The position numbers were made by a program, and so were the translations under genes. DNA of 38,138 nucleotides, from contig JAJPIX010000027.1 of NCBI GenBank assembly GCA_021324545.1, positions 1-38,138 of the forward strand, given 5' to 3'. The notes beneath the pieces were generated by a model, which saw only the letters and a list, made by a program, of their open reading frames with translations, was not told the origin of the DNA and did not search any database. Below, in pieces: positions 1-37,661 of the stretch (position 1 is the stretch's first letter; every line of letters starts with the position of its first letter). The DNA comes from Alphaproteobacteria bacterium (GTDB taxonomy: Bacteria > Pseudomonadota > Alphaproteobacteria > Micropepsales > Micropepsaceae).

Positions 1-280
1 GGGGGCGACCCCAGGGAAAGCGCCACAGAAATGACACCGCCCAAGACCCTAAAGGTCCGGCAAGGTTGAAATGGTGCGGTAAGAGCGCACCGCGTCTCTG
101 GCAACAGAGGCGGCATGGCAAGCCCCACCGGGAGCAAGACCAAATAGGGACGGCATGTGATCTGTTTCCGGATCGCCGTCCGGGTGGGTCGCGCGAGGTG
201 ACGGGCAACCGTCATCCCAGAGGAATGGCCATCTATCCGCGCAAGCGGTGGACAGAACCCGGCTTACAGGCCATCTGACG
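1..280 (+). ncRNA. rnpB: RNase P RNA, type A, 3' part
   Basis: Catalytic RNA of ribonuclease P, which matures the 5' ends of tRNAs. Recognisable conserved blocks are GAAAGCGCCACAGAAA near position 16, GGTAAGAGCGCACCGC near 78, GAGCAAGACCAAATAGGGA near 131, AGAGGAATGGCC near 219, and ACAGAACCCGGCTTA at 252-266, which is the 3' strand of helix P4. The 5' block with the first P4 strand (GAGGAAAGTCC type) is missing, so the gene starts before the window. The 3' end is placed about 14 bases after the CTTA by analogy with other type A RNAs and is uncertain by roughly 10 bases. Open reading frames across this stretch are incidental. Confidence 0.94.
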
Positions 281-290
281 CATATCTTCT

Positions 291-33055: not shown

Positions 33056-33454
33056 TCAAGCCGCGGCCGTTGCGGTTTTCTCCCGCGTGAGCATCAGTCC
33101 GCCCAGCACGATCGCAACCAGAATCAGCGCCGCCACATCGCCGGAAAGATGCCCCATGTTGTTCATGCCGTTGGCCATGCCGAACGACTGGCTTGCCATG
33201 ATCAGCCCGTGCACGAGGCTCGACCACACCGTGAACCAGATCAGGCTCCTGTTCGCGTCCGGATTGCGCGATGCGAGAATCAGGAACACGCCCAGCGTGG
33301 CGTAAACGCCCACGATCATCATGTAATAGTAATTGGAAGACGGCGCGCCGGTATGCCAGGCCCAGCCCGACGGCCAGACGATCGCCAGCGGATAGATCAG
33401 AAGAAAGGCGATGCCGATAATGACGAGTGCAGCCCTCAGCAATGTCGTGTGCAT
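33056..33454 (-). CDS. Small four-helix membrane protein, DUF6632-like
   Basis: A 132-residue protein with four apparent membrane helices, roughly at residues 5-28, 43-61, 70-90 and 105-125. Recognisable stretches are YPLAIVWPSGWAWH near the N-terminus, SSNYYYMMIVGVYATLGVFLI and SLVHGLIMASQSFG. I think this matches the small family of DUF6632-like integral membrane proteins, with no known role. The ATG at 33454 is chosen because GGGAGGG lies 8-9 bases upstream, while the frame continues further up without a signal. The gene lies 33 bases before prmA on the same strand. An apparent terminator (33521-33550) separates it from the candidate RNA upstream. Confidence 0.78.
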   Translation of the reverse strand: MHTTLLRAALVIIGIAFLLIYPLAIVWPSGWAWHTGAPSSNYYYMMIVGVYATLGVFLILASRNPDANRSLIWFTVWSSLVHGLIMASQSFGMANGMNNMGHLSGDVAALILVAIVLGGLMLTREKTATAAA

Positions 33455-33520
33455 GGATTGTCCCTCCCTGCGGCGCTTCACCTGACGGCGAGGATAGGCC
33501 GAGTCCGCGTTCGCGGCCCA

Positions 33521-33550
33521 CACAAATAAGGCGGGCCATCCGCTCCCGCC
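33521..33550 (-). terminator. Intrinsic terminator of the candidate RNA
   Basis: On the reverse strand, GGCGGG (33550-33545) and CCCGCC (33535-33530) form a 6-bp GC stem with a 9-base loop, followed by TTATTTGTG (33529-33521). It is the only stem-plus-T-tract in this stretch and lies 66 bases before the gene at 33454. Confidence 0.55.
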
Positions 33551-33852
33551 CGCCCTGGTCACGATGCGCCTGACTGGCGCGCCGAAGCGTGGTTTCAACA
33601 CGCAATGACGCGCACCTTCGCATTCTACCGCCCCGGCCGTTGCGGGGTCCGCCGTCTCCGTGGGAAGAGGCCGATTGCTTCTTGCCCGGGGAGCCGTGCA
33701 GGGCTCCGCGTTGAGCCAATCGCCTTGTCTTCAAGCCGCAGCTCCAGAGGGATGGGGCGGTCCGCAGGGATGCACGCGAGTGTGCACCCATGGGCCTGTC
33801 TGTCCTCGCGCTGAAGTCACCTCAAAATGCCTGCCCTCCAGAAAAATCCACG
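33522..33852 (-). ncRNA. Candidate structured RNA, unidentified
   Basis: No convincing coding sequence covers this stretch. On the reverse strand it has a near-consensus promoter upstream (33859-33887) and an intrinsic terminator at its end, predicting a transcript of about 330 nt. Four further hairpins are seen by eye. The first is GGATGCAC/GTGCACCC (33768-33789, one mismatch). The second is GGAGCC/GGCTCC (33690-33707) nested inside CGATTG/CAATCG (33672-33722). The third is CCCCG/CGGGG (33631-33647) and the fourth GCGCC/GGCGC (33566-33580). I could not match it to tmRNA, SRP RNA or a known riboswitch. A 6S-like RNA is possible but unproved, and the exact ends are estimates. Confidence 0.42.
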
Positions 33853-33858
33853 CACGAA

Positions 33859-33887
33859 CATATAGCGAACGATTCGGCGAAATGCAA
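33859..33887 (-). promoter_or_regulatory. Sigma70-like promoter on the reverse strand
   Basis: TTGCAT (33887-33882), a 17-base spacer and TATATG (33864-33859) match the -35 and -10 boxes well at ideal spacing. It is AT-rich relative to its surroundings and points at the candidate RNA, with a start expected near 33852. Confidence 0.6.
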
Positions 33888-34295
33888 GAGAAAAAATAGC
33901 ATTATTTTCTTCTTTGCCGGCAAGGACATAGCGTTTGTTCATATGTATGAGCCGATTTTCGCCAACCTTCGGAGTGCGCGAGCGGCGGCCTAATATGAAT
34001 GATGTCCTTCGCGGCCGCGGACGATGGCGGAAATCGGGCCACATGTGCATGCGCCCCCTCCGCTTCGCGCGCAGATGCGCGCTCAGCACCTCCCCCGTAA
34101 ACGGGGGAGGAAAGAGCCACGGCCGGCGCCTCCCCCTGCAAGCGGGCAAGAAAGAGTGGCAGCAGATTGTCGGCGGGTGATGCCGAATGTGTCAGAAGCT
34201 GTCGCAGCGGCTGTTCAAGCGATCCGCGCTTCTCCTCCCCGTTTGCGGCGGAGGCGGACCGCAGCGAAAGCCGCGGGACGGACGTGCGCGGCGCT
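33888..34295. other. Gene-poor stretch
   Basis: I see no gene I can support. Short frames exist on both strands, but their composition shifts abruptly and they cross the hairpin at 34089. 33888-33930 is AT-rich (A-run, then ATTATTTTC), and 34015-34295 is GC-rich with CTCCCC-type repeat fragments at about 34130 and 34230. Confidence 0.5.
34089..34110. repeat. Perfect 10-bp inverted repeat
   Basis: CCTCCCCCGT and ACGGGGGAGG are separated by AA. It resembles the dispersed GC-rich hairpin repeats of many proteobacterial genomes and is similar in style to the hairpins at 35016-35146. There is no T-run, so it does not look like a terminator. Confidence 0.7.
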
Positions 34296-34709
34296 TTATT
34301 TCCGCGCCTGAAACGGATTCAGCAAAGGCACGCCGGCACGCTGGAAATGCCTTGTATTGCCGGTGACAACCGTCAATCCATGTTCCAGCGCCGTTGCGGC
34401 GATGGCGAGATCGAGTTCGGTATTGCCGACCTGGGCGGAGAGGCGGCCCCAGCGGCGGGCGACATTGACTGTGAGCGGCAGAATGCGCTCGCCGAAGACG
34501 CGAAGCGTGAATTCGAGCCATGCCGCGAGATCGTTGGCGAAGGCCGGGTCGGGCTTCTTCTGGCGTTCGATGCCGCGCTCGATTTCGGCCACGGTAATGG
34601 CGCTGAGATGCAAATCGCTCTCGGAGACAGCGCCGATCCATTTCACAACATTGGGATTGCGTTTCCGCTTGCGCAGTTCGGACAGGACGTCCGTATCGAG
34701 CAGATACAT
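34296..34709 (-). CDS. vapC: VapC toxin, PIN-domain ribonuclease
   Basis: A 137-residue PIN-domain protein, the toxin of a VapBC-type pair; family members cleave tRNA or rRNA with magnesium. Acidic active-site residues are in order: MYLLDTDVLSELRKRK (Asp5), SAITVAEIERGIERQ (Glu), then GNTELDLAIAATALEHGLTVVTGNTRHF (Asp in ELDLAIA; the last position reads GNTRHF). Length and spacing are typical. The ATG at 34709 shares one base with the antitoxin stop (TGATG), the usual coupled arrangement. Expression is probably repressed by the antitoxin complex through the dyad upstream of vapB. Confidence 0.93.
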   Translation of the reverse strand: MYLLDTDVLSELRKRKRNPNVVKWIGAVSESDLHLSAITVAEIERGIERQKKPDPAFANDLAAWLEFTLRVFGERILPLTVNVARRWGRLSAQVGNTELDLAIAATALEHGLTVVTGNTRHFQRAGVPLLNPFQARK

Positions 34710-34966
34710 CAGAAGCTGGTTTCGCGAAGGCGAGTTTTCATGCGCTCGAACGTGCCGCCGCCCTTTGGCATGTTCAGCAGATGCTCATTGAACGTGATCG
34801 CCTTTTGCTTCTCCAGCTTCTTGAGGCGGTCATATTCTTCCGCCGCCACAACGACCACGGCGCGCTTGCCGTGTTTGGTCACCGTCTGCGGCTTTTCGCG
34901 CGCGGCTTCCACCACTTCGCTGAAGCGGTTCTTCGCGTCCTGCACGGACCAGCGGGGGTCTTCCAT
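34709..34966 (-). CDS. Phd/YefM-family antitoxin
   Basis: An 85-residue antitoxin paired with VapC. The N-terminal Phd/YefM fold shows WSVQDAKNRFSEVVEAAREKPQTVTKHGKRAVVVVAAEEYDRLKKLE, which binds DNA as a dimer. The C-terminal tail (MPKGGGTFERMKTRLRETSF) should wrap the toxin. The start at 34966 follows directly on the operator, leaving a short leader with no clear ribosome site. It comes first in the operon and overlaps vapC by one base. Toxins of the PIN class are often paired with Phd-type antitoxins, so I leave the symbol blank. Confidence 0.92.
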   Translation of the reverse strand: MEDPRWSVQDAKNRFSEVVEAAREKPQTVTKHGKRAVVVVAAEEYDRLKKLEKQKAITFNEHLLNMPKGGGTFERMKTRLRETSF

Positions 34967-35200: not shown

Positions 35201-37534
35201 TCACGCCCGCTGCACAAAATTGTCGATCACGCGCTTCTCGCCCGCCTTGTCGAAATCGACGGTGAGCTTGTTTCCTTCGACAAACGTCACGCGGCCGTAG
35301 CCGAATTTCTGGTGGAACACGCGGTCGCCGCGCGCGTAATTCGACGATGACGGATCGGATGTCTGCACGGTGTAGGCCTGCGCCTCGATCATGGGCGGGC
35401 GGGTGCGTTGCGCGCTCGCCGCGCGGTTGGCCTGCGCGCGCTTCCAGCCCGGCGATTCATAACCGCTGCCGAAGCTTGCAGCCTGCGCATTGTCGCGGAA
35501 ACCCACATAGCCGCCGTAAAATCCTTCATCCACCACGCTGTCCACATGTTCCGGCGGAAGCTCGGAAATGAAGCGCGAGGGCAGGGCGCTCTGCCAGTTG
35601 CCGTGCACGCGGCGGTTGGCCGCGAAATAGGCCAGCGCGCGTTTCTTCGCGCGCGTGAGGCCCACATAGGCGAGGCGGCGCTCTTCCTCCAGCCCGGCAA
35701 GGCCGTTCTCATCCATCGTGCGCTGGCTGGGAAACAGTCCTTCTTCCCAGCCGGGCAGGAACACGGTGTCGAATTCCAGCCCCTTGGCGGCATGCAGCGT
35801 CATCAGGTTGATGCGGTCGCCCGTGTCGTTCTGCTCCAGCTCCATGACAAGCGCCACATGCTCCAGAAAGGCGGCGAGCGATTCATACTGCTCCATGGAG
35901 CGGACAAGCTCTTTCAGGTTGTCGAGCCGGCCGGGCGCTTCGGCCGACTTGTCGTTTTTCAGCATGTCGGTGTAGCCGCTTTCGTCCAGCACCATTTCGG
36001 CAAGCTCGGTGTGGCGGATATGCCGGGCCACGTCCGACCAGCGCGCGAAATCGACGGCAAGCTGCGCCAGCGCCTTGCGGGCCTTGGGCGGCAGTTCGTC
36101 GGTTGCGGCAATTTCGCCCGCTGCGGCCAGCAGCGGCAGATGATGCGCGCGCGCATAGGCATGCAGCGATTGCACGCTGGCATCGCCCACGCCGCGCTTG
36201 GGCCTGTTGACGATGCGTTCAAACGCCAGATCGTCGTCGCCCTGCGCGATCAGGCGCAGGTATGCCATCGCATCGCGGATTTCCGCGCGCTCGTAAAAGC
36301 GCGGGCCGCCGATCACCCGATAGGGCAGGCCGAGGGCAAGAAAACGGTCTTCGAATTCGCGCATCTGGAACGAGGCGCGCACAAGCACCGCCATCCCGGA
36401 ATAGCGTTCGCCTTTGCTGTGCAAATTCTCGGCTTCGCTTGCCACGGCGCGGGCTTCTTCTTCGGCATCCCACACGCCCTGCACCTTGATCTTTTCGCCC
36501 GGATCGCCTTCGGTCCACAGCGTCTTGCCGAGGCGGCCCTTGTTGGCCGCGATCAGGCCGGACGCCGCGCCCAGGATGGCGGGCGTGGAACGATAGTTGC
36601 GTTCGAGCCGGATCACTTTCGCGCCGGGAAAATCCTTTTCGAAGCGCAGGATGTTTTCGATCTCCGCCCCGCGCCAGGCATAGATGGACTGATCGTCGTC
36701 GCCCACCACGCAGACATTGCCGTTTTGCCCCGCCAGCAGTTTGAGCCACAGATATTGCACCGTGTTGGTGTCCTGGTATTCGTCCACCAGCATGTATTTG
36801 AAGCGCTCGCGGTATTCGGAAAGGATTTCGGGATTGCCGCGCAGGATGGTGAGCACGTCCAGCAGCAGGTCGCCGAAATCGGCCGCGTTCAGCGCCTTCA
36901 GCCGTTCCTGATACTGGCGGTAAAGCGCGCGGCCCTTGCCGAAGGCAAAGCTGTGCGCTTCGCCTTCGGGCACATCGTCCGGCCTGAGGCCCCGGTTCTT
37001 CCAGCCGTCGATGCAAGCGGCGAGCGCGCGCGCGGGCCAGCGCTTCTCATCGATGTTTTCGGCGTCGATGATCTGCTTCATCAGGCGCAGCTGATCGTCG
37101 GCGTCGAGAATCGTGAAATTGGATTTGAGGCCGGCAAGCTCGGCGTGCCTTCGAAGCATGCGCGCGCCGATGGAATGGAAGGTGCCAAGCCACTGCATTC
37201 CTTCCACCACGCCGCCGATGAGAAGGCCGATCCGCTCCTTCATTTCGCGCGCGGCCTTGTTGGTGAAGGTGACGGCCAGGATCTGCCCCGGCCATGCCCG
37301 CCGGGTGGCGAGAATATGCGCAAGCCGCGTGGTCAGAACGCGCGTCTTGCCGGTGCCGGCGCCCGCCAGAACCAGCACGGGGCCTTCGGTGGCAAGCACC
37401 GCCTCGCGCTGCTCGGCATTCAGGCCGGCAAGATAGGGCGGATCGCGCGGCACCGCGGGCGCTTGCGGCGCGGGATTGTCCTCGCCGAACGCCTGATCCA
37501 GCGGATCGGAATAGCGGCCGCCATAACCGCTCAT
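35201..37534 (-). CDS. uvrD: DNA helicase UvrD/PcrA
   Basis: Superfamily 1A 3'-5' helicase, about 777 residues, acting in excision and mismatch repair. Motifs in order: Q-motif LNAEQREAVLA, motif I LAGAGTGKTRVL, Ia AVTFTNKAAREMKERI, Ic LGTFHSIGARMLRRH, II VDEYQDTNTVQY, III VCVVGDDDQSIYAWRGAEI, IV VIRLERNYRSTPAIL, V INLMTLHAAKGLEFDTVFLPGWEEGLFP and VI EEERRLAYVGLTRAKKR. The C-terminal PcrA-type tail GDRVFHQKFGYGRVTFVEGNKLTVDFDKAGEKRVIDNFV is present. The ATG at 37534 is preferred over a GTG at 37546; neither has a clear ribosome site. A CoA-transferase gene lies upstream on the same strand. Confidence 0.95.
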   Translation of the reverse strand: MSGYGGRYSDPLDQAFGEDNPAPQAPAVPRDPPYLAGLNAEQREAVLATEGPVLVLAGAGTGKTRVLTTRLAHILATRRAWPGQILAVTFTNKAAREMKERIGLLIGGVVEGMQWLGTFHSIGARMLRRHAELAGLKSNFTILDADDQLRLMKQIIDAENIDEKRWPARALAACIDGWKNRGLRPDDVPEGEAHSFAFGKGRALYRQYQERLKALNAADFGDLLLDVLTILRGNPEILSEYRERFKYMLVDEYQDTNTVQYLWLKLLAGQNGNVCVVGDDDQSIYAWRGAEIENILRFEKDFPGAKVIRLERNYRSTPAILGAASGLIAANKGRLGKTLWTEGDPGEKIKVQGVWDAEEEARAVASEAENLHSKGERYSGMAVLVRASFQMREFEDRFLALGLPYRVIGGPRFYERAEIRDAMAYLRLIAQGDDDLAFERIVNRPKRGVGDASVQSLHAYARAHHLPLLAAAGEIAATDELPPKARKALAQLAVDFARWSDVARHIRHTELAEMVLDESGYTDMLKNDKSAEAPGRLDNLKELVRSMEQYESLAAFLEHVALVMELEQNDTGDRINLMTLHAAKGLEFDTVFLPGWEEGLFPSQRTMDENGLAGLEEERRLAYVGLTRAKKRALAYFAANRRVHGNWQSALPSRFISELPPEHVDSVVDEGFYGGYVGFRDNAQAASFGSGYESPGWKRAQANRAASAQRTRPPMIEAQAYTVQTSDPSSSNYARGDRVFHQKFGYGRVTFVEGNKLTVDFDKAGEKRVIDNFVQRA

Positions 37535-37661
37535 GGGCAACGACACGATTCAAAGGGCATGGAACGAATGTAGGCCGCCGGCGCCTAATTCCCAAGGGCT
37601 TTCAGTCGCGCATCGCGTGCAGTGCTTTGCGGCGCGGCCAGGCCCGGCGACAAGGACACAA

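Follow-up and report, generated by a model that had tools for sequence, protein, structure and literature searches.

A stretch of about 330 nucleotides on the minus strand of contig JAJPIX010000027.1 (assembly GCA_021324545.1, an Alphaproteobacteria bacterium of the Micropepsaceae) can be identified with high confidence as one copy of a multicopy, genus-restricted family of stand-alone structured RNAs linked to the SOS response. The window, that is, the whole stretch of DNA analysed, comprises 38,138 nucleotides. The preliminary description, drawn from these letters alone, had proposed that the minus strand carries an independent gene for a structured RNA. In the absence of transcript data, this proposal finds support in the existence of homologues, in covariation, in a body that is not coding and in the mixed orientation of the neighbouring genes. 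Conservation and covariation in relatives, the lack of which had been set beforehand as a ground for refutation, were both found, and a conserved coding frame across the stretch, which would also have refuted it, was not. That description had missed the LexA-type box and the mini-ORF, as well as the pseudoknot and the existence of several copies of the RNA.

The RNA locus

The elements predicted for the RNA are collected in Table 1. The minus-strand TTGCAT-N17-TATATG, the hairpins and the GC stem with its T-rich tail, on which the original proposal was built, are all present. Judged alone, the promoter, hairpins and terminator of the window copy are not above chance; strict promoter and terminator scans of 33400-34000 returned 0 and 0 sites, the 331-nt minus strand folds no better than shuffles (z 0.10, with z -1.02 for the opposite strand), and sub-stretches of the locus gave z values of -0.68 to 0.79 against shuffles. 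The observation is significant because of comparison: the RNA occurs at six places in its own genome, its crossing helices covary, G-U cells are in excess, the body is non-coding and terminator-like sites recur.

Table 1. Predicted elements of the window copy (positions in the window)
Feature	Position	Strand	Basis and remarks
Whole RNA, inferred	33523-33852	-	expected to start near 33852 and to finish within the T-rich tail; promoter and terminator positions, homologues; ends unmapped
-35 hexamer TTGCAT	33882-33887	-	sequence
-10 hexamer TATATG	33859-33864	-	17-nt spacer from TTGCAT
LexA-type box GTTCGCTATATGTTC	33856-33870	-	overlaps the -10 hexamer; recurrence across copies
Shine-Dalgarno-like GGAGGG	33834-33839	-	sequence
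Mini-ORF TTG AGG TGA	33817-33825	-	six bases 5' of the pseudoknot; translation inferred
Pseudoknot stem S1, 5' strand CGCGAG	33805-33810	-	covariation
Conserved loop CAGACAGG	33795-33802	-	homologue comparison
Pseudoknot stem S2, 5' strand GGGTGCA	33783-33789	-	covariation
Pseudoknot stem S1, 3' strand CTCGCG	33775-33780	-	covariation
Pseudoknot stem S2, 3' strand TGCATCCC	33767-33774	-	covariation
Conserved 3' core CCGGGGCGG...GCGAAGGTGC	33612-33636	-	homologue comparison
Helix P4, 5' strand ATGCG	33619-33623	-	pairs with 33564-33568; covariation, inner three pairs well supported, outer two weak
Helix P4, 3' strand CGCAT	33564-33568	-	pairs with 33619-33623
Terminator-like GC hairpin (33548-33555 with 33530-33536) and TTATTTG tail (33523-33529)	33523-33555	-	hairpin missed by the strict scan

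No known family was found at the RNA locus by the search of Rfam models that the preliminary description had recommended: in release 15 no model reached the gathering score in the RNA stretch, 33400-34050 gave no hit even at E<=10, and 20 further family copies yielded only two tRNAs, with no 6S RNA and no other family. The 6S-like identity put forward at that stage is unsupported, and 6S RNA and other Rfam families were rejected for lack of a match in the window copy and the 20 others.

Several other features were noted in the window. An RNase P RNA (class A) lies at 1-282 (plus strand), its 5' side cut by the window start. The intergenic space of the RNA also holds a palindrome, CTCCCCCGTAAACGGGGGAG, perfect-looking by eye, at about 34085-34115, and a second, short one at 33911-33926. 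A toxin-antitoxin-like pair (PIN domain and Phd/YefM antitoxin; 34296-34966, minus strand) stands just upstream of the RNA and, further upstream, a UvrD/REP helicase gene (35201-37546, minus strand) runs on the same strand as the RNA.

Copies and distribution of the family

A first comparison within the own genome gave one further copy, 77% identical, and part of a third, and short matches were found in four of 60 relatives, one of the two in G029 being dropped as not a family member. A model of the 5' domain built from 8 copies (R1) recovered 75 copies in 22 of the 69 genomes of the genus and matched two of 385 genomes in a sample of the class, both within the genus. Rebuilt from these 75 copies, the model (R2) found 85 copies in 25 of the 69 genomes (order sample of 96 genomes) and, in the class sample, three of 385, exclusively of this genus and with nothing outside it. 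A third model (R3) describes the 3' core and was made from the 54 of the 85 copies with a clear 3' core score; at E<=0.001 it matched 29 of the 96 order genomes, all in the genus (29/69; not every match was inspected), so that R2 and R3 together cover 31 of 69. In the own genome R2 and R3 mark the same six loci, and neither gave a match in the 27 genomes that represent six sister genera of the order. Whenever more than 40 genomes were searched, the filters were stricter and only a capped number of candidates was scored in each genome (15 for the class sample); absence outside the genus therefore means that none was found at that sensitivity.

At the looser threshold of E<=0.01, R3 gave 147 matches in 33 of the 69 genomes, exposing further subfamilies and up to 13 matches per genome. 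Most of thirteen such loci that were read have a promoter-like start, leader and body in the family order, some with altered pseudoknots; L229 is doubtful, and L231, which sits in an apparent ribosomal-protein gene by eye, is false, so that at least one of the 147 matches is spurious. An automatic search of ten of the thirteen for abutting pseudoknots gave family-like ones, by eye, in three (L206, L215, L217). Many R3 matches in G026, G031, G073, G021 and G076 lie near contig ends, and near-identical RNA copies probably break these assemblies.

A pattern search of genome_contigs returned 22 stretches, of which 11 are members by eye (L126, L127, L128, L130, L132, L136, L137, L139, L140, L144 and L146), located in five MAGs titled Alphaproteobacteria, Hyphomicrobiales or Proteobacteria bacterium; the other 11 look like chance. 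The single hit in viral_contigs, L148, was rejected, the other family features being absent by eye. A search of phage and plasmid DNA gave no family match.

Conserved structure and strand

The body of the family RNAs contains an H-type pseudoknot with strong covariation, formed by two crossing helices, S1 and S2, as established by comparison in an alignment (A4) of 75 copies, 70 of them distinct rows. Pairing reaches 98.8% of cells in S1, 82.2% in S2 and 89.4% overall, with changes on both sides in 11 of 14 pairs (91 cells in all); none of 500 shuffles matched the covariation on any of five measures, and the signal is lost when the partners are slid. Since A4 was fitted to S1, and not to S2, the S1 counts are biased in favour of that helix. 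The pair of columns 28 and 60, unpaired in 58 of the 70 rows, should be dropped. An earlier alignment made from sequence only (A3; 8 copies, 7 distinct) had already given 7 pairs with double changes and 0/500 shuffles on four of the five measures, the fifth (further pair types) being reached in 310/500. The minus strand is fixed by the wobble pairs, since G-U cells exceed A-C cells on that strand (50 vs 7).

In the 3' core, helix P4 also covaries: 74.0% of its cells are paired, where shuffles average 70.0% and never exceed 73.7%, and it has 19 double changes against at most 12 in shuffles, its inner three pairs being well kept and the outer two poorly. A pairing between CAGG in the loop and CCTG in the 3' core was considered by eye only and fails in some subfamilies. 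Moreover, terminator-like sites were found 3' of 72 of 83 copies (83 of the 85 copies; a loose test) versus 30/78 and 37/79 control stretches. Compensatory change over a long retention of structure suggests selection on the RNA itself.

Coding potential and the leader frame

The body of the RNA does not behave as a coding sequence. Substitutions in 15 close pairs of copies show no preference for a codon position (133/119/126, p 0.68), and the length of 34 of the 35 internal gaps is not divisible by three, which rules out a coding body; nor was a conserved toxin reading frame found in the body by this substitution and gap analysis.

In the leader, a Shine-Dalgarno sequence with a minimal ORF stopping just 5' of S1 is found, under a strict rule, in 38 of the 85 copies. 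Twelve control windows, each covering 84-85 copies, gave between 0 and 7, and shuffles averaged 1.36 with a maximum of 5. A motif supplied the anchor of this count in 83 copies, a fixed offset in the other two. Including the start, the 38 frames span three codons in 17 cases, two in 10, one in 1 and more in 10, so that 28 of them are of one to three codons. The remaining 47 copies fail the rule; in the own genome it is passed only by the window copy, whose start codon is TTG, and by the copy on C52, and in some copies the leader frame runs into the pseudoknot. Four G084 copies, not used in building R1 or R2, have an AGGA or AGG stretch followed by ATG-codon-TAA, which misses the strict window by a few bases.

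One group of copies has a longer leader frame that commonly terminates in GR[PL][KR]VPIRR, encoded by varied codons, and amino-acid entropy is lowest in this frame (2.86 vs 3.03 and 3.00; 40 of the 85 copies, chosen by a nucleotide motif). The codon variation in these long leaders hints at translation, but the frames differ little in entropy. Leader peptides with RGRPK or RGRPR, which we take to resemble the AT-hook core, were seen in G000 C50, G021 C3, G026 C41 and G029 C33.

LexA-type boxes

An exact GTTC-N7-GTTC lies at most 130 nt upstream of the pseudoknot in 40 of the 85 copies; control motifs with N6 or N8 spacing, or reversed, gave 0 each upstream of the same 85. The box of the window copy, taken alone, is within chance, whereas its recurrence in 40 copies is not. 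In 24 of 41 boxed copies a TTG stands 17 nt 5' of the box. Five of the six RNA copies in the own genome carry a LexA-type box, and the stricter form GTTCNNNATNTGTTC has 10 sites in that genome, 5 of them at RNA copies, with 0 for the reversed control. The own lexA gene (a PF00717 match, recognised by eye) bears GAACTAAACTAGAAC about 70 nt before its ATG, and the LexA motif reported for Caulobacter matches GTTC-N7-GTTC (PMC12700426).

The exact box is absent from 45 of the 85 copies, including all sampled copies of G029, G002, G028, G034 and G084. Control by LexA, as predicted from the boxes, is common and not universal in the family, since the copies of several genomes have no box; there are no expression or induction data. 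Five further LexA-type sites of the own genome occur without the RNA (C4:52430, C5:36719, C30:4288, C47:1162 and C51:19158), and in at least three cases (C4, C30 and C51) the promoter has the TTG-N-box appearance seen at the RNA copies, and no obvious gene was identified.

Genomic placement, turnover and mobility

The nearest genes of 75 copies, assigned by an ORF heuristic, fall into all four orientations (20, 18, 16 and 13, with 8 undecided), which shows that the RNA is not a leader and rules out a cis-acting leader or riboswitch. The DUF6632 gene downstream of the window copy was found in 16 of the 69 genomes, and just two of these 16 loci have the RNA according to R1, that of the own genome and that of G063, where it belongs to another subfamily; in G072 and G033 a VapC-like gene directly precedes the DUF6632 gene and the RNA is missing, by eye. 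Other family sites likewise show presence, absence or shift in relatives. Contigs C17 and C40 of G063 each break off within an RNA copy and between them contain both flanks of the window site, which may be shared by G063 and the own genome.

Most of the paralogous pairs compared share a unit that, counted from the loop, starts at about -100 to -145 and ends at +197 to +275, the exceptions at its start being two G065 pairs (near -300) and the G074 pair (-28). In G072, the copies on C3 (L095) and C36 (L096) reach 97.9% identity in the part that begins with the first base of the pseudoknot and runs to the terminator, and only there, their promoters and leaders being dissimilar in sequence and alike in layout, which, from the sequences, looks like conversion or movement of the RNA body alone. 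No terminal inverted repeats spanning the unit were found in the three copies tested, and flanking direct repeats in ten copies amounted to chance-like matches of 5-7 bases, with nothing consistent (the true ends are uncertain). Reverse transcriptase (PF00078) occurs in 22 of the 69 genomes and has no match in the own genome despite its six RNA copies, which speaks against mobility based on this enzyme (retron, group II intron).

A possible mechanism and its rivals

The family itself, its pseudoknot, strand and non-coding body, the LexA-type boxes and the enrichment in mini-ORFs are established at the level of sequence; transcription, induction, ribosome docking and any effect in trans are inferred. 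In the mechanism that we propose, DNA damage would release the transcript of about 330 nt in the own genome through the LexA-type boxes of five of the six copies, and a ribosome would load on the Shine-Dalgarno sequence, read the minimal frame and stop with its leading edge at the H-type pseudoknot. Given the footprint of a ribosome, one that initiates at the mini-ORF would extend as far as the base of the pseudoknot. The RNA would thereby be held on ribosomes, or protected by them, with the pseudoknot and the 3' core acting in trans, and translation or growth would be restrained in DNA damage by occupation of ribosomes or of a ribosome-bound factor. A ribosome-engaged, trans-acting and SOS-linked RNA is inferred because precedents exist for the pseudoknot, in tisB, and for minigenes (PMC7708055, PMC8708949). 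For docking on the mini-ORF beside the pseudoknot, for which there are no ribosome data, the case appears evenly balanced; the whole chain, from SOS link to action in trans, is put forward tentatively, somewhat short of an even chance, and a restraining effect on translation in DNA damage is at present a doubtful step. Against the mechanism stands the fact that the LexA box and the mini-ORF are each missing in about half of the copies. The TTG start of the window copy, the success of only two own copies under the strict mini-ORF rule, the unremarkable folds of single sequences and a studied minigene that was not toxic and acted in cis (PMC8708949) also weigh against it.

The same LexA-type boxes would be expected of an ordinary family of trans-acting SOS small RNAs, pairing with target mRNAs (e.g. 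those of cell division) or binding a protein, in which the mini-ORF would merely stabilise the 5' end. There is a precedent in DinR, described as LexA-controlled and repressing ftsZ in Klebsiella (PMC10907235); DinR, however, is single and cut from an mRNA, whereas the present family is multicopy and stand-alone, and this explanation, possible if rather unlikely, leaves unexplained why a stop codon is kept just 5' of a covarying pseudoknot. A message for a short peptide, of the type I toxin kind, with the RNA body only regulating, would account for the longer frames ending in GR[PL][KR]VPIRR with their varied codons and lowest entropy, and SOS toxin messages such as tisB do have pseudoknots (PMC7708055). 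Yet the entropy gap is small and comes from copies picked by a nucleotide motif, most strict mini-ORFs have no more than three codons and the body has no conserved frame, which leaves this reading very improbable.

Finally, the patchy presence, the up to 13 core matches per genome, the empty sites in relatives and the recent duplicates with unit-like ends could reflect an RNA element, selfish or mobile, that spreads in connection with the SOS response, any host function being incidental. The absence of unit-spanning inverted repeats in three copies and, with the true ends uncertain, of consistent direct repeats in ten, the lack of a reverse transcriptase match in the own genome and of family matches in phage and plasmid DNA, and the long maintenance of structure by compensatory change, suggestive of selection on the RNA, make such an origin improbable. 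Returning to the ribosome-engaged RNA, a more speculative extension, which we consider unlikely, is a new class of SOS effector, a non-coding RNA in which a minigene of a start, few codons and a stop would park a ribosome against a pseudoknot and, upon DNA damage, up to 13 copies per genome would titrate ribosomes, or a ribosome-bound factor, by RNA dosage, thus providing an RNA brake on translation without a toxin protein.

Relation to known systems

The family shares traits with several known systems and coincides with none of those compared here. The tisB mRNA of the E. coli type I toxin-antitoxin locus tisB/istR-1 is LexA-controlled, as is predicted for the family, and, again like the family, structured, with an H-type pseudoknot that in tisB binds and recruits ribosomal protein S1 and the 30S (PMC7708055); tisB, however, codes for a toxin, whereas the family body is non-coding, the tisB pseudoknot precedes a standby site instead of following a minimal ORF, and tisB lacks the many copies of the family. 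DinR is likewise an SOS-linked regulatory RNA, described as a 157-nt, Hfq-dependent product cut from the dinI mRNA of Klebsiella (PMC10907235); the RNAs of the family, by contrast, are multicopy, have a predicted promoter and terminator of their own and possess a pseudoknot and a mini-ORF. Small RNAs linked to the SOS response are thus already known. SymE/SymR and dinQ/agr are also SOS-induced loci with an RNA having a regulatory part, and their reported products are proteins or peptides with antisense RNAs, of which none was seen for the family. 6S RNA is stand-alone and structured too, whereas the family has no Rfam match, is centred on a pseudoknot and is multicopy.

Two-codon minigenes resemble the leader of the family in layout. 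Another example, besides the one compared here, is lambda bar. In the axe-txe leader such a minigene likewise consists of a Shine-Dalgarno sequence, a start, one or two codons and a stop; minigenes can hold ribosomes, stabilise RNA and be toxic, and the axe-txe minigene studied was not toxic and acted in cis on the following gene (PMC8708949). By contrast, no gene follows the family RNAs in a fixed orientation, and a covarying pseudoknot stands directly 3' of the frame. Literature searches on LexA or SOS together with structured, multicopy or pseudoknot RNAs gave no description of the family among the matches listed, and none of the SOS-linked regulatory RNAs among them combines LexA-type control with a minimal frame and a pseudoknot in a family of scattered, independent genes.

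Significance

The present results add an RNA family supported by covariation and without a match in Rfam release 15, and raise the question of whether start-stop frames on a non-coding RNA can hold ribosomes during DNA damage. Moreover, the restriction of the family to one genus, together with its gain and loss between species, provides a natural series for the duplication and loss of an RNA gene family.
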